A stretch of DNA of 64,000 bases from Tahibacter amnicola (GTDB taxonomy: Bacteria; Pseudomonadota; Gammaproteobacteria; Xanthomonadales; Rhodanobacteraceae): assembly GCF_025398735.1 (NCBI RefSeq), contig NZ_CP104694.1, positions 5,483,465 to 5,547,464 of the forward strand, written 5' to 3'. Shown one piece after another: positions 10,931 to 30,438 of the stretch. The position numbers and the translations under genes are program-made. Position 1 is the first letter of the stretch. The number at the start of each line of letters is the position of its first letter. The notes under the pieces are model-generated. The model was not told the origin of the DNA. It saw only the letters and a program-made list of their open reading frames with translations, and did not search any database.

Positions 10931-10969
10931 CCCATACCGCGCCGCCTGGAATTTCTGCCACCCTACGGA

Positions 10970-10999
10970 TTGACGCCGTCGCGCTGGGTTCGTAAGAAT
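10970..10999 (+). promoter_or_regulatory. Candidate sigma-70 promoter of the repeat module, copy 1
   Basis: TTGACG at 10970-10975 and AAGAAT at 10994-10999 with an 18-base spacer. Both boxes are conserved in copy 2 (28951-28980) although the spacer differs. The -10 box is weak (4 of 6), so this is a candidate only. Confidence 0.35.
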
Positions 11000-11215
11000 C
11001 ACCTCGCTGCCGCCAAATCGGCAGCCCAGGATTGGCCTCCTGGTATCGTTGGCGCTCAAAAGCGCCCATCCGTCGATGCCGGCGCTTTTTTCACGCCCAG
11101 TCGTCGGCTGGGCGCCCTATTGCCCCCAGTTTTATGGCGGGCGGCGCTTGGCAGCAGCAATGCTGGCCGGTTCCAACGATCCGGTAGGCCAACCAGGCGT
11201 CGTCCGTCACCGTTT
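11000..11215 (+). ncRNA. Structured RNA leader with a C4-antisense-RNA-like fold, copy 1
   Basis: Several hairpins follow each other: CTGCCG/CGGCAG (about 11017-11034), CCAGGA/TCCTGG, GGCGC/GCGCC, then AGCGCC/GGCGCT followed by TTTTTT (an intrinsic-terminator-like stem that shares its left arm with the previous one), and GCCCAG/CTGGGC. From 11134 to 11211 the pattern GGCGGGCGGCGCTTGGCAGC ... GGCCGG ... CCGGTAGGCCAACC resembles the C4 antisense RNA consensus (CCGG pairs and a long-range TTGGC/GCCAA pairing). Comparing copies, the hairpin CAGCA-GCAA-TGCTG becomes CAGCC-GCAA-GGCTG in copy 2: a compensatory change around a GNRA loop, which argues for a selected RNA structure. Assignment to the C4 family is from memory. 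Confidence 0.5.
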
Positions 11216-11257
11216 CGGGTCCGGTGACGGGTCATCCCCACTCGTCGAGGACACGCA

Positions 11258-11422
11258 ATGTCTCTCCGCATGGAACGCCCGTTCGCCGATCGCGAACGTT
11301 TGCCGTCGAGTCGTACCCGCCGCCTGCATCCGGTTTCGCGCCGGTGCAGGCGGTTGCATCGCAAATCCCGGGCCCCGCTGTCGTGCCCTGTCCGCCCCGC
11401 TGCATCAAGGAGCGGCGCATGA
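11258..11422 (+). CDS. Short Arg-rich ORF overlapping the start of the 107-aa gene, copy 1
   Basis: 54 residues from ATG 11258, with GAGG eight bases upstream. Its TGA (11420-11422) overlaps the ATG of the next gene in an ATGA arrangement, which suggests translational coupling. The product (MSLRMERPFADRERL...) is very rich in Arg and unlike any family I know. The frame and the overlap are kept in copy 2. It may be a leader peptide rather than a functional protein. Confidence 0.35.
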   Translation: MSLRMERPFADRERLPSSRTRRLHPVSRRCRRLHRKSRAPLSCPVRPAASRSGA

Positions 11423-11742
11423 GCCATTCCCACGATGACGATGATCAGGTCGACACCTCGCCCGAGTACGGCATCCACGATGTGCTCGTACCCGCGCTGG
11501 CCGAAGATCACCACGACTTTCCGCGCATCCTCCGCGCCGCACGCCACGTACGCGACACCACGCTTGCCAGCCTGCGCACCGTCGCACAGCTGCTACGCGC
11601 GGCCGCCAACGGCGACAACCCACGTCGGTCGGACCTGATGCACGACGCCGGCCACGTCGTCGCCCAGCTCACCGAATTCATCGACGCGATGACAACCCTG
11701 GAAAGCCATGCCGACTTTCAACGGCAGCGACTGGCGCGCTGA
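11419..11742 (+). CDS. 107-aa conserved small protein of the repeat module, copy 1
   Basis: Start ATG 11419 is chosen because AAGGAG lies 7-8 bases upstream; the frame could extend to 11224 but that part is leader. The protein starts MSHSHDDDDQ, with a His/Asp-rich head, then an alpha-helical body (HDVLVPALAEDHHDFPRI, VRDTTLASLRTVAQLLR, DAGHVVAQLTEFIDAMTTLE). Size, acidic head and late hydrophobic helix recall the small DUF3077/DUF6124-type proteins of pseudomonads that sit behind C4-like leaders, but I cannot confirm membership. The copy 2 protein differs only at the start (GTG start, S to R at residue 2). Function unknown. Confidence 0.65.
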   Translation: MSHSHDDDDQVDTSPEYGIHDVLVPALAEDHHDFPRILRAARHVRDTTLASLRTVAQLLRAAANGDNPRRSDLMHDAGHVVAQLTEFIDAMTTLESHADFQRQRLAR

Positions 11743-11754
11743 TCTGCCATTCCC

Positions 11755-11977
11755 TGTAGGTTGGCGGTGAACGCAGCGAACCCCGACATCGGGCCTCTAT
11801 GGCACCTCGGCCTGTGTATTTTGCGCCCTTGCTGGAGTTCGCTGCACTCACCCCAGCCCACCGTTGTGCACTTTCAGTTTTTGTCGCGTAATTCACCCCG
11901 GGTGCGCTGCGCTTACCCAGGCTACAGGGAGCACTGCTTTTATAGCCCGGGTTAACCCGCAGGGTTCACCCGGGGTG
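11755..11977. repeat. REP-like palindromic repeats, copy 1
   Basis: Two pairs of REP-like units. GTAGGTTGGCGGTGAACGCA... (11755-11788) faces GAGTTCGCTGCACTCACCCC... (11835-11862). CACCCCGGGTGCGCTGCGCT... (11893-11925) faces TAGCCCGGGTTAACCCGCAG... (11943-11977). Both types (GTTGGGTGAGCG... and AGCCCGGGTAAG...) are familiar dispersed extragenic palindromes in proteobacterial chromosomes. Confidence 0.65.
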
Positions 11978-12037
11978 GGGCTGCGACCACGATACGAGAA
12001 CTGCCACGCCTCACGATGTTGCACTGCGAACGTCACA

Positions 12038-12207
12038 GGAAACACCGTCAACCGCACCGGAGCGGTTGACCCATCCAAACAGCGCGGTGCGTCTTTCCGG
12101 AAGACTCACCCGCTGCGCACGATGGAACGGTGTTTCCGGTGACGCTTGCCATGAAAACCACCGGTGACTGCTATCCCTCCGACAGCGCCAATCGCGCGAG
12201 CGCTGTC
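12038..12207. other. Cloverleaf-like inverted repeat plus a second perfect hairpin, copy 1
   Basis: An 11-bp outer stem (GGAAACACCGT at 12038-12048, ACGGTGTTTCC at 12127-12137) encloses two arms: GTCAACCGC-ACCGGA-GCGGTTGAC (12047-12070) and GTCTT-TCCGG-AAGAC (12091-12105). About 45 bases on, GACAGCGC/GCGCTGTC (12181-12207) forms another perfect hairpin. The whole block is repeated without visible change in copy 2. No coding frame explains it. Confidence 0.55.
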
Positions 12208-12508
12208 GGGCACGGGGCTGTGCTGACGAGTGCAGCCGTGACAGCCAGGGTAGCGGGCGCCGGTTCCTATTCTTCGTTGCGGCTGCGGCGAAGTCCTGCG
12301 CCCCTCGATCCACTCAGCTACCTACCGGTGCTGCGCAGACGCCGCCTTGAACGGTGCCACACGGTCTCTCCGATGGGCGAGGATCCTCCTCATGTTCAAT
12401 CCTGTCCGAAAGCACGACCGCGCAGGACTGCAATTCATAAGACGAGCGTCCCGTAGATAACTCAAGACGGAACCGACACCAAATCTCAGCATCTGAGACT
12501 ACCATTTG

Positions 12509-12514
12509 TATACT
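12509..12514 (+). promoter_or_regulatory. Candidate -10 box upstream of the 12562 gene
   Basis: TATACT lies 48 bases before ATG 12562 in a locally AT-rich stretch; no convincing -35 box is visible. It begins after the end of the long repeat, so this gene's promoter is island-specific. Confidence 0.3.
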
Positions 12515-12561
12515 GATTACTCAGGGGACGTTTTTCACACCATGGACAAGGAACGAAGACG

Positions 12562-13167: not shown

Positions 13168-13242
13168 TCTAGGGCCACGCGCGGTCCGCCCGGCGGTAGT
13201 GCGGGCGGATCGCAACGAACAGAACCATTCAGGAATCGTGAA

Positions 13243-14169: not shown

Positions 14170-14179
14170 AGAGCCTTCT

Positions 14180-15247
14180 ATGCATACCGCAGACGGCGTT
14201 CGTCGTGGTGATGGCGGCCACGCACCCTATACAGTCTCTGGCTTTGGTCGTGGGTCGCGCTTGTCCGTACCGACGCCGATCTCGGGAAATATCTCGACCT
14301 ACTTCGTACCATGCCGGGTCTCAGGTATGACAATCGCATCATCCACGCCAAACGCGCCTGCTATCACTGCAAGCAGGTGCAACTTGCTGGGAACGGGGAT
14401 GTTGGCCGTTGCGCGCGACGGTGATGGTTGCGCTCCCTCCGTACGCATGAACGCAATGCGAGCGTTGGACCTTCTCCGCGCACACGGCTGGACGACGGAC
14501 TCGCTTTGCCGCGCACATGCCATTTTGCTGGGCAATGACCGATGCGTGCCCTCCCGCTTTCGAGATAGCATCGCGTGGGTGGACGGAGCATCCCCGTCGC
14601 TGGCGAAATTGATTCCGCCACCGACGTCAGCCCTCCATGAACTCATGCACGACTTGCTTACCTTCACCGGATCGTCGAGCCCCACCTGGTTTCGGCAAGC
14701 GATCGCGTACTACCAGTTCCTCCACATTCATCCGTTCAGTGATGGAAACGGGCGCATGTCGCGGCTTCTGGTCGCCTCGATTGCCGGACACGGCGCGCAT
14801 GACCAGTCCGAGGCACTTGCAGTTGCCATTGCGTTGACACTGAATCGCGTCGCCATGACGCGCCATTTCGATGCAGTGCGCGACGGTGACATTCAAATCT
14901 ACCTTGATCTGTGGCACAGGCTCGCAGCATGGGCTGCGGGATTCGTCGGTATCGCCGTCCAGCACGAGCAACGACTGCAAAGTGAACTGATGACGGTGGT
15001 CGGCCCCGGCGCCGGGCAACTGCTGACTCATCTGTGCAGCGCTGCCGCAATCCATCTGCATTCAATCGGGAAGCGCCTCAACTGGTCGAGTAAGATTTTG
15101 GCGTGTCGCGAGCAGCAGCTTCGGTCAGCGGGGTGGATTACCGGGGCGTCGAATGAGCTTACCTGTCCTCCCATAAATCGGACCAGGGTCGATCTCATGA
15201 ACTCGCTCCGTACGGATACCGCTCGGATTCTCGCTTCGCAAAGCTAG
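14180..15247 (+). CDS. Fic-domain protein (putative AMP transferase) without a clear inhibitory motif
   Basis: 355 residues from ATG 14180, or 306 from ATG 14327; the first ~50 residues do not look like a Fic N-terminus, so the later start may be right. The Fic signature HPFSDGNGR is complete at residues 184-192 with the catalytic His and the phosphate-binding Asn/Gly/Arg. Upstream there is the usual beta-hairpin flap region (SRFRDSIAWVDGASPSLAKLIPPP) and ALHELMHDL. Fic enzymes transfer AMP (or related groups) from NTPs to protein hydroxyls. Class II members carry (S/T)xxxE(G/N) before the core; at the matching place this protein has SRCNLLGTG, lacking the Glu, so autoinhibition may be lost or the domain may be drifting. 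The TAG stop coincides with the insertion point of an IS630 element. Confidence 0.8.
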   Translation: MHTADGVRRGDGGHAPYTVSGFGRGSRLSVPTPISGNISTYFVPCRVSGMTIASSTPNAPAITASRCNLLGTGMLAVARDGDGCAPSVRMNAMRALDLLRAHGWTTDSLCRAHAILLGNDRCVPSRFRDSIAWVDGASPSLAKLIPPPTSALHELMHDLLTFTGSSSPTWFRQAIAYYQFLHIHPFSDGNGRMSRLLVASIAGHGAHDQSEALAVAIALTLNRVAMTRHFDAVRDGDIQIYLDLWHRLAAWAAGFVGIAVQHEQRLQSELMTVVGPGAGQLLTHLCSAAAIHLHSIGKRLNWSSKILACREQQLRSAGWITGASNELTCPPINRTRVDLMNSLRTDTARILASQS

Positions 15248-16425
15248 TGTGGTGTTCCATTAATACGCTTAACTAATTGCGCGCCCCAGCCGACCGACAC
15301 TCGCGATGATCTGGTCGGCAGTGCGTCGCCAAGTGAACGGCTTTGGATCTTGGTTGTGTTGGTGCAGGTATTCGCGAATGGATCGTTCGAGGTCGGCGAC
15401 GCTCACGTGTGCGCCACGCTTGAGCCAGCGCGTGGTCAACGTGGAGAAGAAGCGCTCCACGAGGTTGAGCCATGAAGCCGATGTCGGGGTGAAGTGCAGG
15501 TGGTAGCGCGGACGCTGAGCGAACCAGCTACGCACCGCCTCGGTCTTGTGCGTGCCGTAGTTGTCGAGGATGAGATGGATGTCGAGACCTTTCGGCGCAT
15601 CGCGGTCGATGGCATTGAGGAACTCGAGAAACTCGGCACTGCGATGGCGGCGCTTGAGGCGGCCAATCACCTTGCCGGTAGCCACATCCAGGGCAGCGAA
15701 GAGCGAAGTGGTGCCGTGGCGCTGGTAGTCATGCGTATGCGTTGCCGGCTTGCCGAAAGTCATCGGCAGGCCAGGCTGCGTGCGGTTGAGCGCCTGAATC
15801 TGGCTCTTCTCATCCACACACAGCACCAAAGCCCGGTCAGGTGGCGCCAGATACAAACCCACAATGTCACGCACCTTGGCCACGAAGTGCGGATCGGTCG
15901 ACAGCTTGAAGGTCTTGGTCAGATGTGGCTTCAAGCCGAACGCACGCCAGATCCGATGCACGGAAGTCGCCGATACGCCGCTGGCCTGGCTCATCGAACG
16001 CACGCTCCAATGCGTGGCTTTCGTGGGTTTGGCTTTGCGGGTGCGTTCGATCACTGCCTGCACGCACTCATCGTCGACCGAACGCGGACGACCAGGACGC
16101 GGGGCATCGGTAAGCCCGGCAAAACGATACGCCGCGTAGCGACGGCGCCACTTCGATACCGTCTGCTCCGAGACAGCGTACTTCTTCGCAATCGCTTCCC
16201 CACCAAGCCCATCTGCGCACGCCAGCACGATTCGAATCCGAAGCTTTTCGTCTTCGGGCGCTTTGCGTACTGCCAGCTGCGCCAGCAATTCGCGCCGCTC
16301 ATCGGCAGAGATCTCGAGCTTGCTGATCGGTCGACCCATGCGCGCCATCTTCGCAGTCTCCGTCGGGGACTACGAGAGATTACTCCTTTGGCCAATTAAT
16401 TCAATCTATTAACGGAACACCACAC
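15247..16425 (-). mobile_element. IS630-family insertion sequence, 1,179 bp, complete
   Basis: Terminal inverted repeats GTGTGGTGTTCCATTAATA (left) and the complement of TATTAACGGAACACCACAC (right) differ at one base over about 19 bp. A TA duplication flanks it (15245-15246 and 16426-16427), the hallmark of IS630/Tc1-type insertion. The intact transposase is on the minus strand. It is inserted in the TAG stop codon of the Fic gene; because the element begins with G, the stop is rebuilt as TA+G. Confidence 0.92.
15269..16348 (-). CDS. IS630-family transposase
   Basis: 359 residues, full length. An N-terminal helix-turn-helix region ([26 protein letters not shown], then a winged part with [19 protein letters not shown]) is followed by the DDE catalytic domain. 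Catalytic acids are recognisable in [14 protein letters not shown] (first Asp), [11 protein letters not shown] (second Asp) and [15 protein letters not shown] (final Glu), all in the usual IS630 context. It should cut and paste at TA dinucleotides, as the flanking TA duplication shows. No frameshift is visible. Confidence 0.93.
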
Positions 16426-16428
16426 TAG

Positions 16429-17605
16429 GGAAGGTCTGAACAAGTCCGACCCGATTGTGTTGAGATAGTACCCTCCCACACAAAGGCACGCGCATGGACC
16501 AGATGAGCTTCGGCGACTCCGAGTATGCGAGCAAGCGCAAACGGACCCGCCGCGAGGTGTTTCTGGCAGAGATGGAGCAGGTTATTCCCTGGACGATCCT
16601 GCTGAACTTGATCGAGCCGGTGTATCCGAAGGCTGGCAATGGGCGGCGACCGTATCCGCTGAAGGTGATGCTGAAGATTCATCTGATGCAGAACTGGTTC
16701 GGGCTGAGCGACCCGGCGATGGAAGAAGCGCTGTACGAGATCGCGTCGATGCGCCAGTTCGCGAGCCTATCGTTGACGAAGCCGATCCCGGACGAGACGA
16801 CGATTCTCAATTTCCGGAGGTTGCTGGAAACCTACGAGCTGGGTGCCGAGATTCTGGCTCGAGTGAACGGCTATCTGTCGCGCAAAGGGCTGATGCTCAA
16901 GCGCGGAACGATGGTGGACGCCACGATCATCGCAGCACCGAGCTCGACGAAGAACGCCGGAGGTGAACGAGATCCGGAGATGCATCAGACGAAGAAGGGG
17001 AATGAGTGGTTCTTCGGCATGAAGGCGCACATTGGCGTGGATGTCGACTCCGGACTGGTGCACACGGTGACGACAACCGCAGCGAACGAAGCGGATGTGA
17101 ATGAAGCGGAGTATCTGCTGCACGGCAAGGAAAGCGTGGTCTATGCCGATGCCGGTTACACGGGCGCGGACAAGCATTCGTCGCGCCGAGGATTGGACTG
17201 GCAGATTGCTCGTCGACGCAGCAGCGTGAAGGCAATGCCGGAAGGACGCCAGAAGCGTGCGATCGAGAAAGCGGAGAAGCGCAAGGCGAGTATTCGCGCG
17301 CGCGTGGAGCACCCGTTCCGTGTCGTGAAGCGTCAGTTCGGCTACGTGAAGGTGCGCTTCAAGGGACTGGCGAAGAACACGGCGCAGATCCTGACGCTGT
17401 TCGCGCTATCGAATCTGTGGATGGCGCGAAAGCGATTGCTGGCGATGACGGGCGAGTTGCGTCCGAAGGTGGCATAGCGCGTTAAAAAGGCTGCTATTTG
17501 CAGCCTTTGCAAAGCAATCTCGTTCGCTCTGAACCGATTTTCATCACCACCGGCATGCGACCGAGTCTTCAGACAAGCAGTTTTCGAGGCTTGTTCAGAC
17601 TTTCC
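16429..17605 (+). mobile_element. IS5-family insertion sequence, 1,177 bp, complete
   Basis: Inverted ends GGAAGGTCTGAACAAG (left) and the complement of CTTGTTCAGACTTTCC (right), one mismatch. It is flanked by a 4-bp duplication CTAG (16425-16428 and 17606-17609), typical of the IS5 group. The left CTAG is composed of the last base of the IS630 element, the TA duplication and one G, so the two elements share a junction. A hairpin after the transposase (AAAGGCTGC/GCAGCCTTT at 17489-17510) may terminate its transcript. Confidence 0.92.
16494..17477 (+). CDS. IS5-family transposase
   Basis: 327 residues. N-terminal DUF772-type domain (PLKVMLKIHLMQNWFGLSDPAMEEALYEI, PDETTILNFRRLLE) and a DDE domain with MVDATIIAAPSSTKN (first Asp), VVYADAGYTGADKH (second Asp) and RARVEHPFRVVKRQFGY (Glu in the Y-(2)-R-(3)-E-(6)-K-like signature). 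Intact start and stop; it appears functional. Transposes the surrounding 1.18 kb element. Confidence 0.93.
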   Translation: MDQMSFGDSEYASKRKRTRREVFLAEMEQVIPWTILLNLIEPVYPKAGNGRRPYPLKVMLKIHLMQNWFGLSDPAMEEALYEIASMRQFASLSLTKPIPDETTILNFRRLLETYELGAEILARVNGYLSRKGLMLKRGTMVDATIIAAPSSTKNAGGERDPEMHQTKKGNEWFFGMKAHIGVDVDSGLVHTVTTTAANEADVNEAEYLLHGKESVVYADAGYTGADKHSSRRGLDWQIARRRSSVKAMPEGRQKRAIEKAEKRKASIRARVEHPFRVVKRQFGYVKVRFKGLAKNTAQILTLFALSNLWMARKRLLAMTGELRPKVA

Positions 17606-17757: not shown

Positions 17758-17828
17758 TGTCCTCTCGTCAAATTGCCGGAAGGCTAGCTTTGAAAGCCGA
17801 TCGAGGGCCCTGCAAGAGCCTCAACTGG

Positions 17829-17902: not shown

Positions 17903-17911
17903 CATGTCCGG

Positions 17912-20536
<2,625 letters not shown>

Positions 20537-20712: not shown

Positions 20713-21003
20713 TCAGAAAATCAGCGGCCCCTTCAGATTCACGGGGCGCTTGGCGCCGATATGTTCTACCCGTCGCTCGCCATGGGCGCCGAGTTGATAG
20801 AAACGGAGGCTATCGTGGTCACTATCAATGATGTCGACCAATTTCTGCCGGAGCGCCACCCAGGTTGCCGGCTCCACCTCCACTTCGAAAACCGAGTACT
20901 GCACACGTTGACCGTAGTTCCTGCAGGCCTTGGCAATTCGACGTAGTCGCTTCTCACCTTCGACGTCCACCGTACTGACGTCATACGTCACCAGAATCAG
21001 CAT
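20713..21003 (-). CDS. cas2: CRISPR-associated protein Cas2 (type I-C)
   Basis: 96 residues, the usual Cas2 length. Starts MLILVTYDVSTVD, the conserved beta1 strand with the metal-binding Asp, and continues RRIAKACRNYGQRVQYSVFEVEV, the signature of the ferredoxin-like fold. Cas2 dimers bridge two Cas1 dimers in the spacer integration complex. It is the last gene of the operon, 6 bases after cas1, and abuts the leader. Confidence 0.97.
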   Translation of the reverse strand: MLILVTYDVSTVDVEGEKRLRRIAKACRNYGQRVQYSVFEVEVEPATWVALRQKLVDIIDSDHDSLRFYQLGAHGERRVEHIGAKRPVNLKGPLIF

Positions 21004-21009
21004 GGCAAC

Positions 21010-22050
21010 TCACTTCCAGAGAAATGGCGGGTACGCGTCGAGATCGCCCCGAAGATGACGTGCCATCAACTGAGCCTGCAACCACGGAAATAGCCCGATT
21101 TCGGCAGTCTCGCCGCAGAAAGCATGTTTCAAGGGCTCCCTCTTTCGCTCTTGATACGCCACCAGTACGGTCTTGCGCGCATCATCCTTCAAGGTTACTG
21201 CCCCGCTATCGGCAACAATGAAATCCGTAGGCCTGAGCTGCCGACGATTGATCAATGACAGCGCAAGGCGATCGGCGAGTACGGAACGGAATTCCTCTGC
21301 GAGATCCAGCGCCAACCCCGGACGGCCCGGACGATCACGGTGAAGAAAGCCAACAGCCGGATCGAGCCCGACCGATTCCAGTGCGGACCGGCAATCGTGC
21401 GTGACCAGTGTGTAGAGAAAGGACAACAATGCATTCACGCGATCGCGAGGTGGCCGGCGACTTCTTCCTTCGAACTGAAAGCCCGCGTCGGACACCCGAA
21501 TCAGATTCCGGAAGACGTCGAAGTACCGTCGCGCTGCGTCTCCTTCCAGCCCGCGCAAGCTGTCTACATCCGGCGTACGGTGCAACCGCTCCACTATGTG
21601 TGCCAGGCCACGGTCAGCCTGCACGAGCGCTCCAGATTCAGCCGCCGAACAGCTTGAAGCGTGATCGCGTATCGCGCGACGAATCACCGCGCGCTGATTG
21701 TGGATCTTCCCAAGCAGAATATGACATACGACTGCCGCACAGCGGGATGGATCGTCACTGCACCGGTACTGCTCTCTACGCAATAGCACGTTTCCCGACA
21801 CGGCCCCTTCGACGCGGGCGAGAAATCGGCCGTTCATTGTCAAGAAGGAAACGCAAATTCCCAGCTCACAACAATGCCCCATCAGCGCGGGGGACATCAG
21901 CACGTTTCCGAAACACACGATGCCGGACAGCAAATGCAACGGTAAACGCCCACTTTCTGCCTTCTCGACATCAATCACGACGTTCTCGCCATCTTTTCGC
22001 AGCCACGCGCCTTCCGTCGTCACGTACAACGTATTGAGAAGCGGTCTCAC
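21010..22050 (-). CDS. cas1: CRISPR-associated endonuclease Cas1 (type I-C)
   Basis: 346 residues. The N-terminal beta domain begins MRPLLNTLYVTTEGAWLRKDGENV. Metal-binding catalytic residues are in their usual context: Glu169 (RGLEGDAARRYFD), His237 (VGFLHRDRPGRPGL) and an acidic residue near 249-252 (LALDLAEEFR). Cas1 catalyses integration of new spacers at the leader end. Its start overlaps the cas4 stop by 4 bases, so the two are translationally coupled, in keeping with the Cas4-Cas1 complex known for type I-C. Confidence 0.98.
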   Translation of the reverse strand: MRPLLNTLYVTTEGAWLRKDGENVVIDVEKAESGRLPLHLLSGIVCFGNVLMSPALMGHCCELGICVSFLTMNGRFLARVEGAVSGNVLLRREQYRCSDDPSRCAAVVCHILLGKIHNQRAVIRRAIRDHASSCSAAESGALVQADRGLAHIVERLHRTPDVDSLRGLEGDAARRYFDVFRNLIRVSDAGFQFEGRSRRPPRDRVNALLSFLYTLVTHDCRSALESVGLDPAVGFLHRDRPGRPGLALDLAEEFRSVLADRLALSLINRRQLRPTDFIVADSGAVTLKDDARKTVLVAYQERKREPLKHAFCGETAEIGLFPWLQAQLMARHLRGDLDAYPPFLWK

Positions 22051-22691
22051 GACGAATCATCCCCGAGTGCTCGACGCAACCACTCCTTCACGCTTTCCCT
22101 GCCTGGCGACCGCCGCGGCCGGCACAAATCCAAAAGAGAACAGGAGTCGCATCGCGATGCCATGTAATCTGCTGTTGGCGTCGTCTGGTTCTGTATCAGC
22201 GCGCGGACAAGATTGATTACCTCCAACGTCAGGGCTCGCAGCCCGGCGTCAAACCGGACAACAACACGTCGTCGCGTCTTTCCGTAGAACAAGGCTCCCT
22301 CCGGCACCGGAGTTCCCAGCATCTCCTCAAGACACAAGGCTTGCGCGCATAGCTGAACTTCGTCGGCACGGTGTGACTTCGGGCTACCGCGCTTGTACTC
22401 GACAGGAAATGGCTGCAATCCGTCGTCGCCCACGAACTCCACAACGTCTGCTACACCGACCAGCCCCAATCCGTCGCTTCCGATTGCCAGCGCAGTAGCA
22501 GTACGCACACCGTGTCGCGCCTCGGTGCGAGGGCGGTCGCTGCGATCGTGCAGCAATCGCCCTTCAGCGGTGTGGACATTCTCTGCCCATAGACGCTCGA
22601 CATGAATCAACGCACATTGACGCGGACAGTACAGATAGTGCTGTAACGCGGAAATCGGAATAATGATCTCTTCACTGTCCACGCGCGCCAT
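22047..22691 (-). CDS. cas4: CRISPR-associated exonuclease Cas4
   Basis: 214 residues. Fe-S cluster cysteines are visible near the N-terminus (YLYCPRQC) and at the C-terminus (SRCDSCSLLDLC). The PD-(D/E)XK nuclease core is recognisable in GVADVVEF and FPVEYKRG. Cas4 trims prespacers and helps choose the PAM and orientation. Length is normal. It lies 7 bases after cas7 and overlaps cas1. Confidence 0.96.
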   Translation of the reverse strand: MARVDSEEIIIPISALQHYLYCPRQCALIHVERLWAENVHTAEGRLLHDRSDRPRTEARHGVRTATALAIGSDGLGLVGVADVVEFVGDDGLQPFPVEYKRGSPKSHRADEVQLCAQALCLEEMLGTPVPEGALFYGKTRRRVVVRFDAGLRALTLEVINLVRALIQNQTTPTADYMASRCDSCSLLDLCRPRRSPGRESVKEWLRRALGDDSS

Positions 22692-22698
22692 CGACCCA

Positions 22699-23568
22699 CT
22701 AGAACATTTCGGATACCGTCACACCCGCGGGCACACGCTGCTGATCGACACTGACGCGGTAGTCGGAGAAGCCGCGTGCCGGAGTTGTGGCATCACCGCC
22801 GGCGCGACCGATGTGAACCGCATCGAACAGAACATGCGCAGGTGCGTTGCCCATTGGGTTCTCGTGCTCAAAAACAATGAGCTTTCGAGCTGCCATCTCG
22901 CCGCGAGCTGCCGACCGGTCGTGTTCGAACAGGTTGCCCAAGGATCGCCAAAACAGCTGCAGGTCGTCTTCGGAGAATCCGGTGCGCTCGGCAAGCTTCG
23001 CAGAAATGAAGCCGTGCACCCGATAGAGGCCGTAAGGCAGAATGTGCTTACGTCCCATGGTGCGTTCCTTTTCCAGATCACGCTCGTTGGTGACCGCGAC
23101 GCGGGTGATTGCCACTTCCAGTGGCAGAACGGGATCAATGGATGTGGCGAATGCCATTTGGACGGGACCGCGAACCTGTCCGGAATTGACTTCCGTCGTC
23201 ATCACCGCTCCGAAGGTTCGCACGTCAAAGAAGTTCTTGCACATCCAGGCGGTCAATTCCCGCGCCTTGGCCTCGTCCTTTGGTAGCTTCTTCGGTTCGT
23301 GCGTGATCCCCAGCGCGGAATAGGCCTGTTTGTGCTGATTATTGAGCACGGACTTCTCTTGCATATAGATCGCAAAACCCGGCTCGCCCTCCTTCTCAAG
23401 GGATACATAGTTCCGGATCTTTCGCTTTAGCGCTACGTCTGTCACCAGGCCCTTATTGGTTTCAGGGTCAAGACGCGGAAGGTTTCCCGCATCCGGATCC
23501 CCATTGGGGTTGCCATTGGCGACGTCGAACAGGTAGACGAATTCATAGCGGTGAGTGATCACGCTCAT
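22699..23568 (-). CDS. cas7c: Type I-C Cascade backbone protein Cas7 (Csd2)
   Basis: 289 residues. Begins HRYEFVYLFDVANGNPNGDPDAGNLPRLDPET, the hallmark of Csd2/Cas7c. Further typical parts are VKRKIRNYV-like (ALKRKIRNYVSLEKE), FFDVRTFGAVMTTEVNSGQVRGPVQMAFA and LPYGLYRVHGFISAKLAERTGF. Several copies coat the crRNA spacer in the Cascade complex. Its start overlaps the cas8c stop by 4 bases. Confidence 0.97.
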   Translation of the reverse strand: MSVITHRYEFVYLFDVANGNPNGDPDAGNLPRLDPETNKGLVTDVALKRKIRNYVSLEKEGEPGFAIYMQEKSVLNNQHKQAYSALGITHEPKKLPKDEAKARELTAWMCKNFFDVRTFGAVMTTEVNSGQVRGPVQMAFATSIDPVLPLEVAITRVAVTNERDLEKERTMGRKHILPYGLYRVHGFISAKLAERTGFSEDDLQLFWRSLGNLFEHDRSAARGEMAARKLIVFEHENPMGNAPAHVLFDAVHIGRAGGDATTPARGFSDYRVSVDQQRVPAGVTVSEMF

Positions 23569-25373
23569 GCCGAGACTCCTTCCGATTCATTCACGGTTTC
23601 ATGCGATTCCGCTTCGTCACCCGCGGCATAGCGCGACTGTGTCTGGTGGTAGTAGCCAATCGCAAACCGTCCTTGCGCGGCGATTGCCAGACTCCGAGGG
23701 AACGACGTTTCCAGCGAATCGACAATGGCACCGATTTCCTTCTCAAGCACCACCGCCAGCCCCGCCTTTTCCTTGCGAATCTTACTCAGGTGATTCTGCG
23801 CGTTGCGCAGCAGCACCGGGAAGATGCTTGCCGGCGTCGCCGACGCAGCGCCGTAGTAGCGGTCGCGGATGGTGGCGTTGACCTGCCTTCCCAGCGCCGC
23901 CTTCTGAACACTCTCCAGGGTCGAGAACAGTCGCCCCAATACATAGCCGGGATCGGCACAGGTCAGATCGAGACTCACGGGTAGTACTCCCTCGTCGGTC
24001 TGTCGGTTGCTCAGCCGCGCATCGCGGACCAGGACTGCCTTGCACAGCGCCACACGCGTACCAGTAACTTCGCCGTCTGCCCGAAAACGCATGACGAGCG
24101 TGCCCACCACGCTCAAGGGATAACGCGTGCCACAAAGTATGGCGCGCGTCAGCTCACCAGCGAGCAGGGGCGATACGTCTTCGTCTTTGGTCTTGCCACT
24201 AATAATCGGAGCGGTTGCCCGTGCTAGCGTCCGGGGTGATGGTGGACGCTGCCAACGGACAGGCTCGATCTTCAGGTCGTCATAGTGGGCAGCGAGCCGC
24301 TGTGCAAAGCGCCCAAGGGTGTCTGTCTCCCAGAAGCGGACGGAAAGTCGCGACGCATTCGGTGCAAGTCCCAAGACGAAGATCTGCGTTCCGTCATTTA
24401 GATGCCCGCCGAGCTCCCGCAATGGACGCGCATGCCGGATCTGTTGGAGCGCACTTCGCAAGAGTTCCGTCTCACGAGCGTCATCATCGCGATGGTCAAG
24501 AAACGCCGCGAGCAAGCTCTCGGCCTCCTCCGCATCTCTCGTGGCTGGCGCCTGGGCCCAGAACACGATCGTCGTGTCGCCGATCTGCAGGCGCTGTCGA
24601 TTGTGCGCGTCCCGGCGCAGCAGATGATTCAGCGCCGTCGTGTACGCAAATGCGGCTTGCTGCGAAACGGGCGCATTGTCGCCCTGCACTTTTCCAAACG
24701 ACGAGAATGCGCCCAGATTGAACGAAACAATGGATGCGCCGGAACTTTGTGCGCCATTCACGCCTTTTATTGCCGGGTGCAGACGCGCCAGCGGCGAATA
24801 CTCGCCCGTAACAAGGCACGTTCCGCGTGATTCGTCTCCGCCTTGCTGCTGTTGCCAAGCGTCACGCGCCGCCCGTCGATCATGCAGGTAGCCCAGGTCG
24901 CCATCCAACTGGAACACGACATTGGCATCCAGCATTTCGTCGCCCTGGTCGACGAAATGGACGTTCTCCCGGAACTGCTGCGGCGTCCAGCCATCCAGGA
25001 ACGCCAGCAGAGCCTGCACGCCCGGGTCGTTGGATACGGCCAGCGCTTCGCAGTGTCTTGCTTTGAACGCGGCATGCTCCTTTTCACATCGCGTGCTGGT
25101 CGCACTGACGCCCAGCACGTAACTGGTCTTGTCCCATAGAAAGTTGGAAGCGATACCAGACGCCCGCTTTCCAGGCTGAGGCACGCGGATCAGCCGCGGT
25201 GTCGGCTTCTTCCCACTCATATCCCGAAGATCACTGATATCGACGACTTCGCCGTTCTCTGCAAGTCGAATTGCGAAACTGATCTTCTCCTGACTGTAGC
25301 CCGGAGGGGCAACACCCGAAGCGCTGTCGTCCAGCAAACGCTGGTAGTAGTCAGCCAGCGCGGAGAGGATCAT
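23565..25373 (-). CDS. cas8c: Type I-C Cascade large subunit Cas8c (Csd1)
   Basis: 602 residues from ATG 25373, chosen because it overlaps the cas5 stop as ATGA; an upstream GTG at 25397 would add 8 residues. It begins MILSALADYYQRLLDD, the standard Csd1 start, and contains FAIRLAENGEVVDISDLRD, TSYVLG, VSFNLGAFSSFGKVQGDNAPVS and YTTALNHLLRRD, and the block IFVLGLAPNASRLSVRFWE. Cas8c recognises the PAM, and in type I-C an internal start in this gene is known to yield the small subunit Cas11c; I cannot pick that start with confidence. Confidence 0.96.
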   Translation of the reverse strand: MILSALADYYQRLLDDSASGVAPPGYSQEKISFAIRLAENGEVVDISDLRDMSGKKPTPRLIRVPQPGKRASGIASNFLWDKTSYVLGVSATSTRCEKEHAAFKARHCEALAVSNDPGVQALLAFLDGWTPQQFRENVHFVDQGDEMLDANVVFQLDGDLGYLHDRRAARDAWQQQQGGDESRGTCLVTGEYSPLARLHPAIKGVNGAQSSGASIVSFNLGAFSSFGKVQGDNAPVSQQAAFAYTTALNHLLRRDAHNRQRLQIGDTTIVFWAQAPATRDAEEAESLLAAFLDHRDDDARETELLRSALQQIRHARPLRELGGHLNDGTQIFVLGLAPNASRLSVRFWETDTLGRFAQRLAAHYDDLKIEPVRWQRPPSPRTLARATAPIISGKTKDEDVSPLLAGELTRAILCGTRYPLSVVGTLVMRFRADGEVTGTRVALCKAVLVRDARLSNRQTDEGVLPVSLDLTCADPGYVLGRLFSTLESVQKAALGRQVNATIRDRYYGAASATPASIFPVLLRNAQNHLSKIRKEKAGLAVVLEKEIGAIVDSLETSFPRSLAIAAQGRFAIGYYHQTQSRYAAGDEAESHETVNESEGVSA

Positions 25374-26044
25374 GCGTGCACCTCCTCGCCGGACCACGCC
25401 GGAACTGCGATCAATCCGTTGATCATTCGCGCGCGGAAAAATCGCGGCGTAATGCCGTCGGCGAAATCGATGTCATGAAGCATCCAGCCAAGGTCGCGCT
25501 CACCGTTGAGGGCGCAATCTGGCACCGGCACGGAATCGACATCCTCCACGAGCTGAAAGTGGGCGGGAAACTCCCGCGTTCCCAGACACGGCATCTGGAA
25601 GCACTGCCCCTTCCGAGCCCGCCGATTGAAGATGTCCAGGTGCTTTCCTTCACTATCGTCGGCGCCGGCATTCTCGGTCAGTTCGAAATGCGCCGAAATC
25701 ACATAACCGACATTCCGCAGGATGGTCGCGGCCCGCTGCTGCCGGTCCTCCTCGACATAGGTCACCAATCCATCCGTGCGTTTTGCCTTGATGGCCTTGG
25801 CAACACTGGCTGCGGAAAGTTTTGCGCCGACCTCGTTGCGTCGAATCGATTCGAAACGAATCGGCTTCAATACCTGGATGCTGTCAATTACCCATCGAAT
25901 CGCGGGCTTCCAGTGAATGGCATCCAGTATTCCTCTCGCCGCCGACGGCGTTATCACGTCGTAGGAGACGCGTTCGACCTTCATTTCCGGGCGTGTGAAC
26001 AGCGCCCGGTCGCCCCAGATGTGAAGCTTGATTCCATACGACAT
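25370..26044 (-). CDS. cas5c: Type I-C Cas5 (Cas5d), crRNA-processing endoribonuclease
   Basis: 224 residues, starting MSYGIKLHIWGDRALFTRPEMKVERVSYDVITPSAARGILDAIHWKPAIRW, a near-canonical Cas5d opening. A strong Shine-Dalgarno (GGGAGG) precedes the ATG. In type I-C, which has no Cas6, this protein cuts the repeat RNA and caps the crRNA 5' handle. The 158-base gap to cas3 is the longest in the operon. Confidence 0.96.
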   Translation of the reverse strand: MSYGIKLHIWGDRALFTRPEMKVERVSYDVITPSAARGILDAIHWKPAIRWVIDSIQVLKPIRFESIRRNEVGAKLSAASVAKAIKAKRTDGLVTYVEEDRQQRAATILRNVGYVISAHFELTENAGADDSEGKHLDIFNRRARKGQCFQMPCLGTREFPAHFQLVEDVDSVPVPDCALNGERDLGWMLHDIDFADGITPRFFRARMINGLIAVPAWSGEEVHA

Positions 26045-26202
26045 TGTCCCTCCCCGCTACCTGGCGTAGATGGCTACGACACCTGACCTCCGTCAACACC
26101 GCCTTGTTAGAAAGAACACAGATCAGCCAGAGCTGATGCTTACGCCTACTCCGCCTGCCCCTCCCGAGTCGCCGTACTCGATAGCAATTGTCCACTATTT
26201 TC

Positions 26203-28452
26203 TTAACGCACCAATTGCTCCGCGTCAAGGAACTGTGGGTTGTCCCACCGCAAGCCAAACCGTGCGTCGTACAGCCTCGGATTCACCAGCTCGACAAACT
26301 GTTCCCCATACCGTTCCGGCGCCACCGGGGCGATGGCGCTCGCGCACCTTAGCGCGTCGTACGCCTGCCTCGGGACTTGAACGAGGTAGGGCTGCACCCA
26401 TCGCCCGGCCGTCGCAGCGTATTCGAGAGTTTTCAACGCGTTGGAGATGTAGGGCTCACGGTTCCCGGTACCTGGCACGAACGGCACGATAATCGGCAGC
26501 ATTGCTGTTTCCACGATTCGGAAGCGGGCTGCCAATGTCTCCAGCGGCAAGTTCTCCGGGCCGGCGCCCTTGAGCAGTCCGAGCAGGTTTTCGTTGTCCA
26601 GCCTGTCGCTGCCCAACAGGTGGTAGATCTCTCGGAAGTAGTCATCTACCGCTGCCAACGCAAGCAGATCGTTACTGTGTCGGCGCTCTGTGGCACGGAA
26701 CGCCTCTGCAAAGCGCTTCAGCTCCGGCGGAGGCGCCCAATGGGGGTTCGCCGTCCGAAACACCAGCACTTCACTCGCTTCCGGCAATGCCAGACCTTCC
26801 CGGTTGCAGCGGCCGGCGGCCTGCGCCACCGAGTCCAGGCCCGCCTCGGCGCGCCAGACCGACGGGAACGAAATATCCACGCCTGCCTCAATCAAACTGG
26901 TGCTGACCAGCCGGCATGGCAGATTTTCGGCTAACCGGGCGCGCACCTCTTCAAGCACTTGCCGACGGTGGCGCGCATACATCAGCGTGGTCAGGTGGTA
27001 CGTACCTTCCAGGTCTTCCATCGACTCAAGCAAGTGCCGTGCATGCCGTCGGTTGTTGACGATGCAAAGTACCTGGTTCCGACTACGGAGATTCCCCACC
27101 AAAGTTTCATCCTCAAGCACGCCCACATGGCGCACCGTTACGCGACGAAGCCGCTGATAGAGCGATCTCGGCTCCGGTGCCAGCTCGCGCACGTTCTCCA
27201 ACCCGTCGGGAAAGCCTTGATCCTTCCGAAGCGATGGCTGTGTCGCCGTGCAGATGACCACGCTGGTCCCATAGTTGAGTGCCAGCTCGTCAATCAGCGC
27301 CACGCACGGCCGTAGCAGCTTTGGTGGCAAGGTTTGCGCTTCGTCCAGAACAACGACACTGCCGGCAATATTGTGCAGCTTCCGGCAGCGCGACGGCCGG
27401 TCTGCGAATAGACTTTCGAAAAACTGAACAGCGGTGGTGACAACGATGGGCGAATCCCAGTTCTCCATTGCCAGTCGACGTTTGTCCTTCGACGCGAACG
27501 CGGTGGACGGGTCGTCGACGAAAGCGCTGTGGTGTTCCAGAACGACGTCGTCCGAATCACCGAAGACACCCCGAAAAACAGCCGCTGTCTGCTCGACGAT
27601 ACTAGTGAACGGAATGACATAGATGATCCGCCGCAGGCCGTGCCTGACGGCGTGATCGAGCGCAAAAGCCAGAGACGCCAACGTCTTGCCACCACCGGTT
27701 GGCACCGTCAGTGAGAACAGCCCGGGCGTTTCGGTCGCTTTGCTGCGCACGTGAGCAAGGACTTCCGCGCGGATGGGGTTGACGCCGCCGACCGTGGGTA
27801 GTCGGGCGAGGTGTTCACTGAGCGTGTCACGCAACAACGCCAACCCGGGCGACATGTTCTGCAGACGCGGAGGCGCGCCCTCGACGCGACGATAGAAGTT
27901 GTCTGTATCCAGATAGTCTGCATCGACCAGACACGAGAACAGCATTCGTACCAGCAAAGCCAGCTGGAATGCGCCACGTTTGCTGCAAGGCTTGAAACCG
28001 TCCGGCAGACAGATTGCATCCGGAAGGGCGATTTCACTTTCCCAAGCCGACAACAGTGGCGGCAATGTCTGACGATAGTCATCCGACATCCGTTCACGCA
28101 GGGAGCTGCGCTTCTCACCCCCGTCACCGTTAGCAAGTCCGGCGTGATGACCCGCGATGGCATAGGCTAGCAATGTCGCCAACCCGTTCTGACGGCCTGA
28201 ATATCGCTCTCGAACAATGCGGGCGCCCCAGGTCGCATGGTCGACAGCGTAGGGATCCCCCGCCAAACGGCGTTGAAAGCGCTCCGTGTACTTGCCAAGG
28301 TCATGCAGCATACCGGCGACCCTCGCCAGCACCTGTGCATTGAACCAGGCCGCATTGGCGGCCGCGCCCTCTCCGACCGCGACAAGATGTTCCCGCAAGA
28401 GCTGCCAATCGGATCGATTAGCCTTTTCCGTCGAATGTGCATGGAAAACCAT
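26203..28452 (-). CDS. cas3: CRISPR-associated helicase-nuclease Cas3 (HD + DExH)
   Basis: 749 residues from ATG 28452, chosen for its GGAG and because the homologous part begins MVFHAHS; the open frame reaches further to 28599. N-terminal HD nuclease: the first His near HAHSTEKANRSDWQ, then MLHDLGKYTERFQRRL, DHATWGARIV and AIAGHHAGLANGD. Helicase: Walker A TVPTGGGKTLASLAFAL, VIPFTSIVEQ, Walker B VVLDEAQTLP, motif VI QAAGRCNREG. Cas3 is recruited by Cascade to degrade target DNA. It is the first gene of the operon. Confidence 0.97.
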   Translation of the reverse strand: MVFHAHSTEKANRSDWQLLREHLVAVGEGAAANAAWFNAQVLARVAGMLHDLGKYTERFQRRLAGDPYAVDHATWGARIVRERYSGRQNGLATLLAYAIAGHHAGLANGDGGEKRSSLRERMSDDYRQTLPPLLSAWESEIALPDAICLPDGFKPCSKRGAFQLALLVRMLFSCLVDADYLDTDNFYRRVEGAPPRLQNMSPGLALLRDTLSEHLARLPTVGGVNPIRAEVLAHVRSKATETPGLFSLTVPTGGGKTLASLAFALDHAVRHGLRRIIYVIPFTSIVEQTAAVFRGVFGDSDDVVLEHHSAFVDDPSTAFASKDKRRLAMENWDSPIVVTTAVQFFESLFADRPSRCRKLHNIAGSVVVLDEAQTLPPKLLRPCVALIDELALNYGTSVVICTATQPSLRKDQGFPDGLENVRELAPEPRSLYQRLRRVTVRHVGVLEDETLVGNLRSRNQVLCIVNNRRHARHLLESMEDLEGTYHLTTLMYARHRRQVLEEVRARLAENLPCRLVSTSLIEAGVDISFPSVWRAEAGLDSVAQAAGRCNREGLALPEASEVLVFRTANPHWAPPPELKRFAEAFRATERRHSNDLLALAAVDDYFREIYHLLGSDRLDNENLLGLLKGAGPENLPLETLAARFRIVETAMLPIIVPFVPGTGNREPYISNALKTLEYAATAGRWVQPYLVQVPRQAYDALRCASAIAPVAPERYGEQFVELVNPRLYDARFGLRWDNPQFLDAEQLVR

Positions 28453-28911
28453 CGTGTCTCCCTGCTCAGACGCGCACCTTCCGTACCGTCTGTCCGAACT
28501 CGTGCGCATTGCAATTGCACCACCGGAGTACTGCGCGCACGCCGGGTATGGTCTAAGGAAGCTAAGACGCATCGCACAGGTTGAGACAATCAGCGCCACG
28601 CAACGATATATGCCAATTCACCCGTTATTGAAACTTACGGCGCCACGCACCACAGGACCAGACGATGGGAAGATGCCCGTAATACACGCGGTCCAGCATG
28701 GCGCGACCATCTTCCATTTTTTTCGGGTGGCACAACGTCGCCACAGAAGTATTGAACGTTACCGTCGTAAATGCACGTCTATAGAACTCGCTACCCGCTA
28801 TGGCCGCGGACCGCATACCGCCGAGGTACCCGAAGCCGTTTCGCCCCGTTGAAGCGCAGAGTACGGACATCGCACGAGCAGGTCACCGCCGAGCAGATCA
28901 GAGGCTTCGCC
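28453..28911. other. Intergenic region with the cas operon promoter; no gene seen
   Basis: About 460 bases between the cas3 start and repeat copy 2. The cas promoter must lie here on the minus strand. I could not pick out a convincing -10/-35 pair. The palindrome GCAATTGC at about 28513 is a weak candidate operator. A minus-strand frame at 28625-28870 has no Shine-Dalgarno or recognisable product. Confidence 0.4.
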
Positions 28912-28950
28912 CCCATACCGCGCCGCCCGGAAAATCTGCCACCCTACGGA

Positions 28951-28980
28951 TTGACGCCGTCGCGCCGGGTCCGTAAGAAT
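28951..28980 (+). promoter_or_regulatory. Candidate sigma-70 promoter of the repeat module, copy 2
   Basis: TTGACG (28951-28956) and AAGAAT (28975-28980), spacer 18, the same boxes as copy 1 although spacer bases changed (CTGGGTT to CCGGGTC). Confidence 0.35.
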
Positions 28981-29197
28981 CACCTTGCTGCCGCCAAATC
29001 GGCAGCCCAGGATTGGTCTCCTGGAGAGTAGGCGCAGCCAAGCGCCCATCCGACGATGCCGGCGCTTTTTTGTGCCCAGTCTTCGGCTGGGCGCCCTATT
29101 GATACCATCCGGTTTCAATGGCGGGCGGCGCTTGGCAGCCGCAAGGCTGGCCGGAACCTACTCCCGGTAGACCAACCAGGCGTCGTCCGTCACCGTT
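28981..29197 (+). ncRNA. Structured RNA leader with a C4-antisense-RNA-like fold, copy 2
   Basis: Hairpins match copy 1: CTGCCG/CGGCAG, CCAGGA/TCCTGG (loop change C to T only), GGCGC/GCGCC (loop wholly changed, stem kept), AGCGCC/GGCGCT plus TTTTTT, GCCCAG/CTGGGC. The C4-like part has CAGCC-GCAA-GGCTG where copy 1 has CAGCA-GCAA-TGCTG, and keeps the TTGG/CCAA long-range pairing. Stem retention with loop drift supports RNA function in both copies. Confidence 0.5.
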
Positions 29198-29240
29198 TCG
29201 GGTCCGGTGACGGGTCACTCCCACTCGTCGAGGACACGCA

Positions 29241-29405
29241 ATGTCTCTCCGCATGGAACGCCCGTTCGCCGATCGCGAACGTTTGCCGTCGAGTCGTACC
29301 CGCCGCCTGCATCCGGTTTCGCGCCGGTGCAGGCGGTTGCATCGCAATTCCCGGGCCCCGCTGTCGTGCCTTACCCGCCCCGCTGCATCAAGGAGCGGCG
29401 CGTGA
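29241..29405 (+). CDS. Short Arg-rich ORF overlapping the start of the 107-aa gene, copy 2
   Basis: 54 residues from ATG 29241 to TGA 29403-29405, keeping the 4-base overlap with the next start (here GTGA). A handful of codon changes relative to copy 1. Function unknown; possibly a leader peptide. Confidence 0.35.
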   Translation: MSLRMERPFADRERLPSSRTRRLHPVSRRCRRLHRNSRAPLSCLTRPAASRSGA

Positions 29406-29725
29406 GGCATTCCCACGATGACGATGATCAGGTCGACACCTCGCCCGAGTACGGCATCCACGATGTGCTCGTACCCGCGCTGGCCGAAGATCACCACGAC
29501 TTTCCGCGCATCCTCCGCGCCGCACGCCACGTACGCGACACCACGCTTGCCAGCCTGCGCACCGTCGCACAGCTGCTACGCGCGGCCGCCAACGGCGACA
29601 ACCCACGTCGGTCGGACCTGATGCACGACGCCGGCCACGTCGTCGCCCAGCTCACCGAATTCATCGACGCGATGACAACCCTGGAAAGCCATGCCGACTT
29701 TCAACGGCAGCGACTGGCGCGCTGA
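29402..29725 (+). CDS. 107-aa conserved small protein of the repeat module, copy 2
   Basis: As copy 1 (11419) but started by GTG 29402 behind the same AAGGAG, and with Arg instead of Ser at residue 2. From the third residue on the protein equals copy 1. The weaker start codon could lower expression. Function unknown. Confidence 0.65.
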   Translation: MRHSHDDDDQVDTSPEYGIHDVLVPALAEDHHDFPRILRAARHVRDTTLASLRTVAQLLRAAANGDNPRRSDLMHDAGHVVAQLTEFIDAMTTLESHADFQRQRLAR

Positions 29726-29737
29726 TCTGCCATTCCC

Positions 29738-29960
29738 TGTAGGTTGGCGGTGAACGCAGCGAACCCCGACATCGGGCCTCTATGGCACCTCGGCCTGTGT
29801 ATTTTGCGCCCTTGCTGGAGTTCGCTGCACTCACCCCAGCCCACCGTTGTGCACTTTCAGTTTTTGTCGCGTAATTCACCCCGGGTGCGCTGCGCTTACC
29901 CAGGCTACAGGGAGCACTGCTTTTATAGCCCGGGTTAACCCGCAGGGTTCACCCGGGGTG
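29738..29960. repeat. REP-like palindromic repeats, copy 2
   Basis: Same two facing pairs as at 11755-11977, offset 17,983 bp, with no difference seen. Confidence 0.65.
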
Positions 29961-30020
29961 GGGCTGCGACCACGATACGAGAACTGCCACGCCTCACGAT
30001 GTTGCACTGCGAACGTCACA

Positions 30021-30190
30021 GGAAACACCGTCAACCGCACCGGAGCGGTTGACCCATCCAAACAGCGCGGTGCGTCTTTCCGGAAGACTCACCCGCTGCG
30101 CACGATGGAACGGTGTTTCCGGTGACGCTTGCCATGAAAACCACCGGTGACTGCTATCCCTCCGACAGCGCCAATCGCGCGAGCGCTGTC
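30021..30190. other. Cloverleaf-like inverted repeat plus hairpin, copy 2
   Basis: Same as 12038-12207, offset 17,983 bp: outer stem GGAAACACCGT/ACGGTGTTTCC with two inner arms, then GACAGCGC/GCGCTGTC. Confidence 0.55.
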
Positions 30191-30438
30191 GGGCACGGGG
30201 CTGTGCTGACGAGTGCAGCCGTGACAGCCAGGGTAGCGGGCGCCGGTTCCTATTCTTCGTTGCGGCTGCGGCGAAAGCCACTCGGACCTGCGCGGGAACA
30301 TTCGGGCTCTGCTCGCAGCGACGGATTCCTCTGCCCGATCACCCCGCGCGGCGCGTTCTCCCACCGCCCAGCCCGTTTCACCCCCAGCCAGCTTCCGGCC
30401 ACTACCCTGTCTGGGCGCCTGGACAAAGGGAATTCGTC

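Follow-up and report, generated by a model that had tools for sequence, protein, structure and literature searches.

The 64,000-nt window analyzed here (Tahibacter amnicola, GCF_025398735.1, NZ_CP104694.1:5,483,465-5,547,464, forward strand; genome of 6.46 Mb in one contig) contains two same-strand copies of a repeat, at 10931-12292 and 28912-30275, that are 96.7% identical over 1367 columns when the window is aligned against itself by blastn. Apart from an array of clustered regularly interspaced short palindromic repeats (CRISPR), this pair is the sole self-match listed (E 1e-10, >40 bp). The offsets between the copies are 17,983 and 17,981 bp, and the final mismatch lies at 11424, ahead of a perfect tail of 868 bp (11425-12292 and 29408-30275); the shared orientation, the offset of 17,983 bp, and an identical end part of "~866 bp" had been read from the letters in the original prediction and are borne out by the alignment. 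Judged by their sequence, both copies are C4 antisense-RNA cassettes, in which an IsrK/a1b1-like leader with a terminator is followed by a C4 RNA, a short leader open reading frame (ORF), and a gene for a small helical protein, hereafter the payload.

Anatomy of the two cassettes

The features of the two copies, all on the forward strand, are as follows:

10931-12292, +: copy 1 of the repeated C4 cassette (direct-repeat search, blastn)
10970-10999, +: promoter-like TTGACG-18-AAGAAT of copy 1, putative in function (9/12 consensus; 1 found versus 0.1 expected in 10800-11300)
11006-11092, +: IsrK-like/c4-a1b1 leader RNA with terminator, copy 1 (Rfam, below cut-offs; fold of 11006-11095, z -3.25)
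11032-11038, +: b1 site TTGGCCT, copy 1, predicted to pair with b' 11186-11192 (complementarity)
11045-11052, +: a1 site ATCGTTGG, copy 1, predicted to pair with a' 11173-11180 (complementarity)
11051-11091, +: three-arm putative attenuator GGCGC / AAGCGCC / GGCGCTTTTTT, copy 1 (strict pattern)
11130-11214, +: C4 antisense RNA, copy 1 (RF01695, 68.1 bits, cut-off 45)
11258-11422, +: leader ORF, 54 aa, copy 1, its stop overlapping the payload start as ATGA (ORF reading)
11419-11742, +: payload, 107-aa helical orphan protein, copy 1 (homology, predicted structure; no Pfam, NCBIfam, or PHROGs match)
11425-12292, +: 868-bp tract identical to 29408-30275, probable gene-conversion tract (alignment)
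28912-30275, +: copy 2 of the repeated C4 cassette (direct-repeat search, blastn)
28988-29076, +: IsrK-like/c4-a1b1 leader RNA with terminator, copy 2 (alignment to copy 1; fold z -4.16)
29013-29019, +: b1 site TTGGTCT, copy 2, predicted to pair with b' 29169-29175 (complementarity)
29026-29032, +: a1 site GAGTAGG, copy 2, predicted to pair with a' 29157-29163 (complementarity)
29114-29197, +: C4 antisense RNA, copy 2 (RF01695, 64 bits, cut-off 45)
29241-29405, +: leader ORF, 54 aa, copy 2, its stop overlapping the payload start as GTGA (ORF reading)
29402-29725, +: payload, 107-aa helical orphan protein, copy 2, 99% identical to that of copy 1 (homology)

Both C4 RNAs belong to the Rfam family by covariance-model scores above gathering. 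The leader bears a clear likeness to isrK and to c4-a1b1, a motif (RF03163) found in a table in the available part of PMC2864571, although it falls short of membership by the gathering cut-off.

The payload has few affinities beyond the cassettes. Across 15 payloads, the best Pfam match has an E-value of 0.0044 and the best NCBIfam match 0.064, each from one member only; the window payload has no match in PHROGs, a viral fold search with the payload gave no match at E 0.001, and no antirepressor gene, as would be expected of a phage antirepressor operon, was recognized downstream. Comparison by hhalign detected no homology among three payload families found with C4 cassettes, two of which are predicted as an N-terminal tail plus helices, two helices being long (predicted local distance difference test scores of 76 and 72). 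The cassette tail at 11752-12292 (query 822-1333) holds short repeats that recur at dozens of places in the genome, some of which resemble repetitive extragenic palindromes (REP) or miniature inverted-repeat transposable elements (MITE) by eye.

The cassette family and the pairing of its loops

An Rfam C4 search of the T. amnicola genome identified 19 C4 RNAs (2 in the window and 17 elsewhere) at 18 loci, including tandem C4 RNAs at 2049673-2049996 that are about 240 bp apart. C4 matches were also found in 10 of the 36 relatives searched, including five of seven genus mates, and in 25 of 200 genomes of the order (24 above the cut-off), where the T. amnicola genome ranks first with 19, followed by 16, 12, and 12. 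By EF-G, which is 82-85% identical to that of Dokdonella and Rudaea, the host is placed as a member of the Lysobacterales near these two genera.

Our comparisons draw on 45 cassette copies, comprising the 19 own copies and 26 of the 51 C4 matches in relatives. An a1b1 was present in 43 of the 45; at relative locus L087 none was obtained, perhaps due to misplacement of the C4 RNA by the script. The strict three-arm attenuator pattern occurs in 35 of the 45, with two of these matches (2811325- and 2827848-) parsed with an arm inside b1. Payload homologues accompany 16 of the 19 own C4 copies, and 14 of these 16 cassettes have the 4-nt overlap between leader stop and payload start. Genus-mate C4 copies have a different small orphan protein family downstream in 15 of the 16 loci examined, with a RadC-like protein instead at L090. 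Across the 200 genomes of the order, the payload profile matched the own genome plus two weak partial hits, and a payload alignment scan of named genomes matched no relative.

The scaffold is well conserved over the 19 own C4 RNAs, and the a' loop is distinct in all 18 compared (tandem copy 2049673-, for which there is no a1b1, was left out of the own-copy pairing tests). Each a' is complementary over 7-10 nt to an a1 that precedes the C4 RNA of the same cassette by about 80-100 nt, with G-U pairs needed in some copies, and b' is complementary to b1, a hairpin loop. In the 45-copy set, complementarity of the loops to their cognate sites, as in known C4 RNAs, averages 7.95 for a versus 5.40 for non-cognate combinations, and 7.05 versus 5.61 for b; neither cognate mean was reached in any of 10,000 permutations. 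When the loop only is considered in the own genome, the cognate mean is 8.2 versus 4.2, and the own site is strictly the best in 17 of 18 copies; for the window pair, the scores are 8 and 7 against their own sites, and 4 and 4 against each other's.

This matching has been maintained through extensive divergence. Between paralogues, a1 differs at 73% and a' at 70% of sites (near saturation), compared with 15% in the remaining RNA region, and the mismatch totals of b1 and b' are equal (168/1071 each). A matched change of both a1 and a' is seen in three close pairs (p 9e-9, 1e-5, and 1e-9), including 594998-/6302473+, which are 95% identical overall; by these sequence comparisons, joint switching of the paired sites extends to close duplicates.

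Predicted regulation and relation to known C4 systems

Our reading, which we consider probable though well short of certain, is that the repeats come from a family of C4 cassettes with 18 loci, each with private negative feedback by leader attenuation. A single transcript would begin with the IsrK/a1b1-like leader, which would display b1 in a hairpin loop and a1 single-stranded directly ahead of a three-arm attenuator (GGCGC-GCGCC-GGCGC-Tn), the middle arm of which is able to pair with either neighbour arm. Upon read-through past the terminator, the C4 RNA would be made and then cut out by RNase P, by analogy with phages P1 and P7, and its a' and b' loops would pair best with a1 and b1 of the same cassette. 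The last base or two of a1 (G or GG) are also the opening of the first attenuator arm, and in all 18 own copies compared the a1 pairing extends to the initial G of this arm or further. C4 pairing would therefore be expected to prevent the antiterminator hairpin and shift the balance to termination, with the start of the first arm occupied and the middle arm left to the terminator. The feedback would act on the leader ORF and the small helical payload, which may be translationally coupled through their overlap. We infer a function for the payload on the same footing as termination control and C4 processing.

The C4 RNA of P1 and P7 additionally masks the ribosome-binding site (RBS). Own copies show no cognate excess of a second site, a2, near the RBS (4.61 versus 4.61 non-cognate; 2849/5000 permutations), so that a second target (a2/b2) over the downstream RBS is not apparent in them as a group, and leader attenuation is favoured over P1-type RBS blocking. 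In relatives, the same test gave 5.93 versus 5.33 for genus mates (58/5000 permutations) and 5.80 versus 5.12 for other relatives (407/5000), with a'-complementary RBS sites of 12 nt (L061), 8 nt (L062, L066, and L073), and 7 nt (L063 and L083).

Several observations weigh against this regulatory reading. In minimum free energy predictions, the leader by itself adopts the terminator fold even when C4 is absent, and termination may therefore be the default, in which case C4 may matter less. Own copy 6065600+ has 7 nt complementary near the RBS. A promoter pattern is present in only 13 of the 45 copies. Insulation is imperfect, with non-cognate a pairing of at least 7 nt in 10 of 306 own pairs, non-cognate pairing is barely below that of shuffled loops (4.19 versus 4.36), and the b sites, with few variants, contribute little specificity. 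The leader matches in copy 1, which was covered by the lax-threshold search, are below threshold both for isrK (RF01394; 48.2 bits versus a cut-off of 50, E 8.7e-9) and for c4-a1b1 (RF03163, 10993-11046; 33.6 bits versus 46.7, E 3.3e-6), and at Rfam gathering scores neither family is listed for either copy. The payload is interrupted in own copy 6302473+, and tandem copy 2049673- is without an a1b1 of its own. The comparison of defence-gene neighbourhoods given in the next section is small, sets helicase-type and SngC matches of the control aside by name, and draws on lists of families, not of proteins.

We place the feature as a variant of the known C4 system, in which C4/a1b1 is chromosomal and amplified and specificity is private to each copy. 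The C4 RNAs of P1 and P7, whose heteroimmunity and loop-set specificity are covered in the available parts of PMC12197685 and PMC5320573, are alike in Rfam C4 score and in the pairing of a'/b' loops with a/b sites; in contrast, the present RNAs are chromosomal, number 19 per genome, lack the cognate a2 excess at the RBS, and accompany a payload without a credible antirepressor match in the libraries scanned. In the accessible text of PMC5320573, the Group 1 C4-like small RNAs of Acinetobacter baumannii are similar in that there are 21 on the chromosome, with a conserved scaffold and a variable a' loop of 7-11 nt; that portion of the text does not state their targets, whereas here all but one copy have a co-changing cognate a1b1 in cis, with the attenuator layout and mostly a coupled payload. 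Phage P4 CI RNA with seqA/seqC, likened here by its description in the available part of PMC4825925, also involves an antisense RNA made downstream that pairs with an upstream leader site, with premature termination proposed; the present system differs in its intrinsic three-arm terminator and in having no downstream second site in own copies as a group. C4 matches are also reported in Xylella (PMC12189769, available in part). Within this partial survey of the C4 literature, matched cis a1 partners with coupled payloads are not described.

A parallel to the leader-ORF arrangement is IsrK-orf45-anrP of Salmonella Gifsy-1 (PMC4825925, in the part available), which likewise combines a leader RNA and terminator with a short ORF overlapping the next gene by AUGA, and differs in that the T. 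amnicola system is multi-copy, with private C4 pairing and a payload without a credible family match. It is conceivable, if doubtful, that the short terminated leader is an IsrK-like activator or a C4 sponge that switches the cassette on, as in Gifsy-1; the isrK model match just below the cut-off and the resemblance of the ATGA overlap to orf45-anrP would suit such a role, but the private pairing found, in tests of the leader against the C4 RNA, joins these two.

The interval between the copies and the origin of the identical tails

The following features lie between the two cassettes:

14180-15247, +: Fic/DOC protein (PF02661)
15269-17477, - then +: two insertion-sequence transposases, of types DDE_3 (15269-16348) and DDE_Tnp_1/DUF772 (16494-17477) (domain matches)
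about 17978-20536, +: CRISPR array of a type I-C system (repeat pattern; 38 repeats by loose pattern, 36 perfect)
20713-28599, -: type I-C cas3-cas5c-cas8c-cas7-cas4-cas1-cas2 (profile matches)

The full set of cas genes listed, together with the array, identifies the CRISPR-Cas system as type I-C. One spacer is doubled in tandem within the array (19912-20043), and the array matches a single phage record, which is unannotated.

The original prediction had placed all accessory content inside the repeats. This holds for the Fic protein, both transposases, the CRISPR array, and the cas genes, but not for the surroundings: the GC (guanine plus cytosine) fraction is 0.604 at 12.3-28.9 kb and 0.585 at 5.1-10.9 kb, compared with 0.648 at 0-5 kb and 0.652 at 30.4-64 kb. 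As GC is already lower at the RHS gene to the left of copy 1, the repeats are no neat border of accessory DNA; on the right, the usher gene has matches of 29-31% identity in three of seven genus mates and none in the other four. C4 cassettes lie near RHS genes in the window (RHS 5113-10080 and cassette from 10931), at another place on the contig (201633-210010 and 210827), and in several relatives (G009:C10, G018:C2, G018:C4, G004:C7, and G057:C122).

The two halves of the window copies have different affinities. The RNA head of copy 1 (10990-11230) is 91.4% identical to that of cassette 1107825+ and 85.4% to that of copy 2, whereas the payload parts of the two window copies are 99.4% identical. 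Gene conversion of the tail, or exchange of the head, fits this mosaic better than a single duplication, and, going by the sequences, the likeliest source of the 868-bp identity is gene conversion affecting the payload half.

The original prediction had instead taken the repeats as the ends of an island, such that recombination between the 868-bp tails would remove about 18 kb and make CRISPR immunity reversible. Flanking direct repeats, as in integrative or excisable islands, are present, and a perfect identity of 868 bp in direct orientation is a credible substrate for homologous recombination; deletion of about 18 kb is thus plausible from the sequence. The lower GC and the transposases inside the interval would also accord with an excisable island, as would a second direct C4 pair (2811325-2827930; 16.5 kb apart, 82% identical) that encloses transposase-like genes named by eye from translations, one of them RAYT-like. 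A look-alike of the RAYT-like gene, with a weak Y1_Tnp match, is located 0.5 kb from cassette 6065600+. Nevertheless, we judge that an excisable immune island is unlikely. The module largely proved to be what the original prediction had named as contrary evidence, a sequence in many copies unrelated to island ends, as it is dispersed over 18 loci, although an identity of 97% over the full 1.36 kb is confined to the window pair. A further pair of cassettes, 95% identical over 1372 bp, is on opposite strands and would be separated by about 750 kb on a circular contig, so that near-identity is a property of the family rather than an island signature. Nor are same-strand neighbours unusual by chance: with 18 loci placed at random, such neighbours within 18.1 kb arose in 35% of trials, and at least two such pairs, as observed, in 6%. 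The mosaic heads of the window copies also speak against simple island ends, and no integrase or site-specific recombinase was recognized among the interval proteins scanned, only the two transposases, in the course of searches not aimed at integrases.

No syntenic empty site was found in the genus mates, none of them a close relative, via the usher, GGDEF, EF-G, or the RpoN-like protein at 45059 (named by eye). In all six genus mates with an EF-G match (89-93%), the best match to the GGDEF protein of the other flank is on another contig, and orthology is reasonably clear only in G007 (60%); with the flank genes on different contigs, no empty site is available in these genomes. A site-specific island with attachment sites is not supported, as no tRNA gene was found in the window and no integrase was recognized among the proteins scanned; nor are transposon ends, as a search of the window for inverted repeats of at least 60 nt found none.

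The data are only suggestive of an association between C4 cassettes and neighbouring defence genes. Such a gene is no more than 1.7 kb away at 4 of the 14 other cassette loci (Septu PtuA, an AbiLi-like ATPase, a SoFic-type Fic, and a type III restriction gene), and the cassette-locus scan also lists a type III methyltransferase, as well as PDC-S18 and another REase_III member whose loci were left unassigned. At 15 random loci, the 25 of 39 families listed include helicase-type matches (GajB/UvrD, BrxHI, DruE, and RTasHel) and SngC; with these set aside by name as probably generic, 4/14 versus 0/15 gives p = 0.042 (one-sided). The test used ORFs no shorter than 220 aa and no farther than 6 kb away (70 cassette-locus and 91 random-locus proteins), with the pair in the window and that at 2811325/2827848 excluded, and the scans list families rather than proteins (the best 25 of 53 for cassettes and the best 25 of 39 for random loci). 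A tendency of the cassettes toward accessory, defence-rich regions would account for the position of two copies beside the CRISPR island. A second Fic protein (DUF4172-Fic, SoFic-like; L104:6450-7784) is encoded 154 bp from a C4 cassette.

A more speculative and rather improbable proposal is that the 18 cassettes are host-owned, sequence-specific RNA sensors of phage, in which each C4 RNA would keep its own payload repressed by private pairing until phage RNA of the matching immunity group titrates that C4 RNA and releases the payload as an abortive-infection effector. If so, diversifying selection on the loops would explain matched switching even between 95%-identical copies, the location of cassettes near CRISPR, Septu, Abi, SoFic, and restriction genes would be accounted for, and copying with gene conversion would place heads onto payloads, thereby building new specificities.

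It is improbable that an incoming molecule carrying a C4 cassette integrated into a resident cassette in Campbell fashion and left one cassette on each side: the different heads of the window copies, and the cassettes near defence genes elsewhere, would fit such an event, yet it predicts differing tails too, and these are identical over 868 bp. Also against such an event, the phage collection had no match for the head and the plasmid collection none for the repeat; with the payload likewise unmatched in phages, and a head pattern unmatched in viral contigs, a phage or plasmid source was rejected. That the cassettes are dead prophage relics, decaying immunity fragments without function, is very improbable: C4 RNAs are described as phage-derived in the available part of PMC5320573, the payload homologue is missing from 3 of the 19 copies, and one copy is interrupted, but both halves of each RNA pair remain matched while diverging almost to saturation, and overlap and payload are kept in most own copies.

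As members of a C4 cassette family, the repeats of the window offer a caution, in that long repeats flanking a defence island can be dispersed cassettes rather than island ends. A single chromosome here carries 18 antisense RNA pairs that have diverged naturally on a near-constant scaffold, with close duplicates that have already switched in specificity, which allows us to ask how antisense RNA pairs turn orthogonal after duplication, and what a host-amplified phage immunity RNA does.

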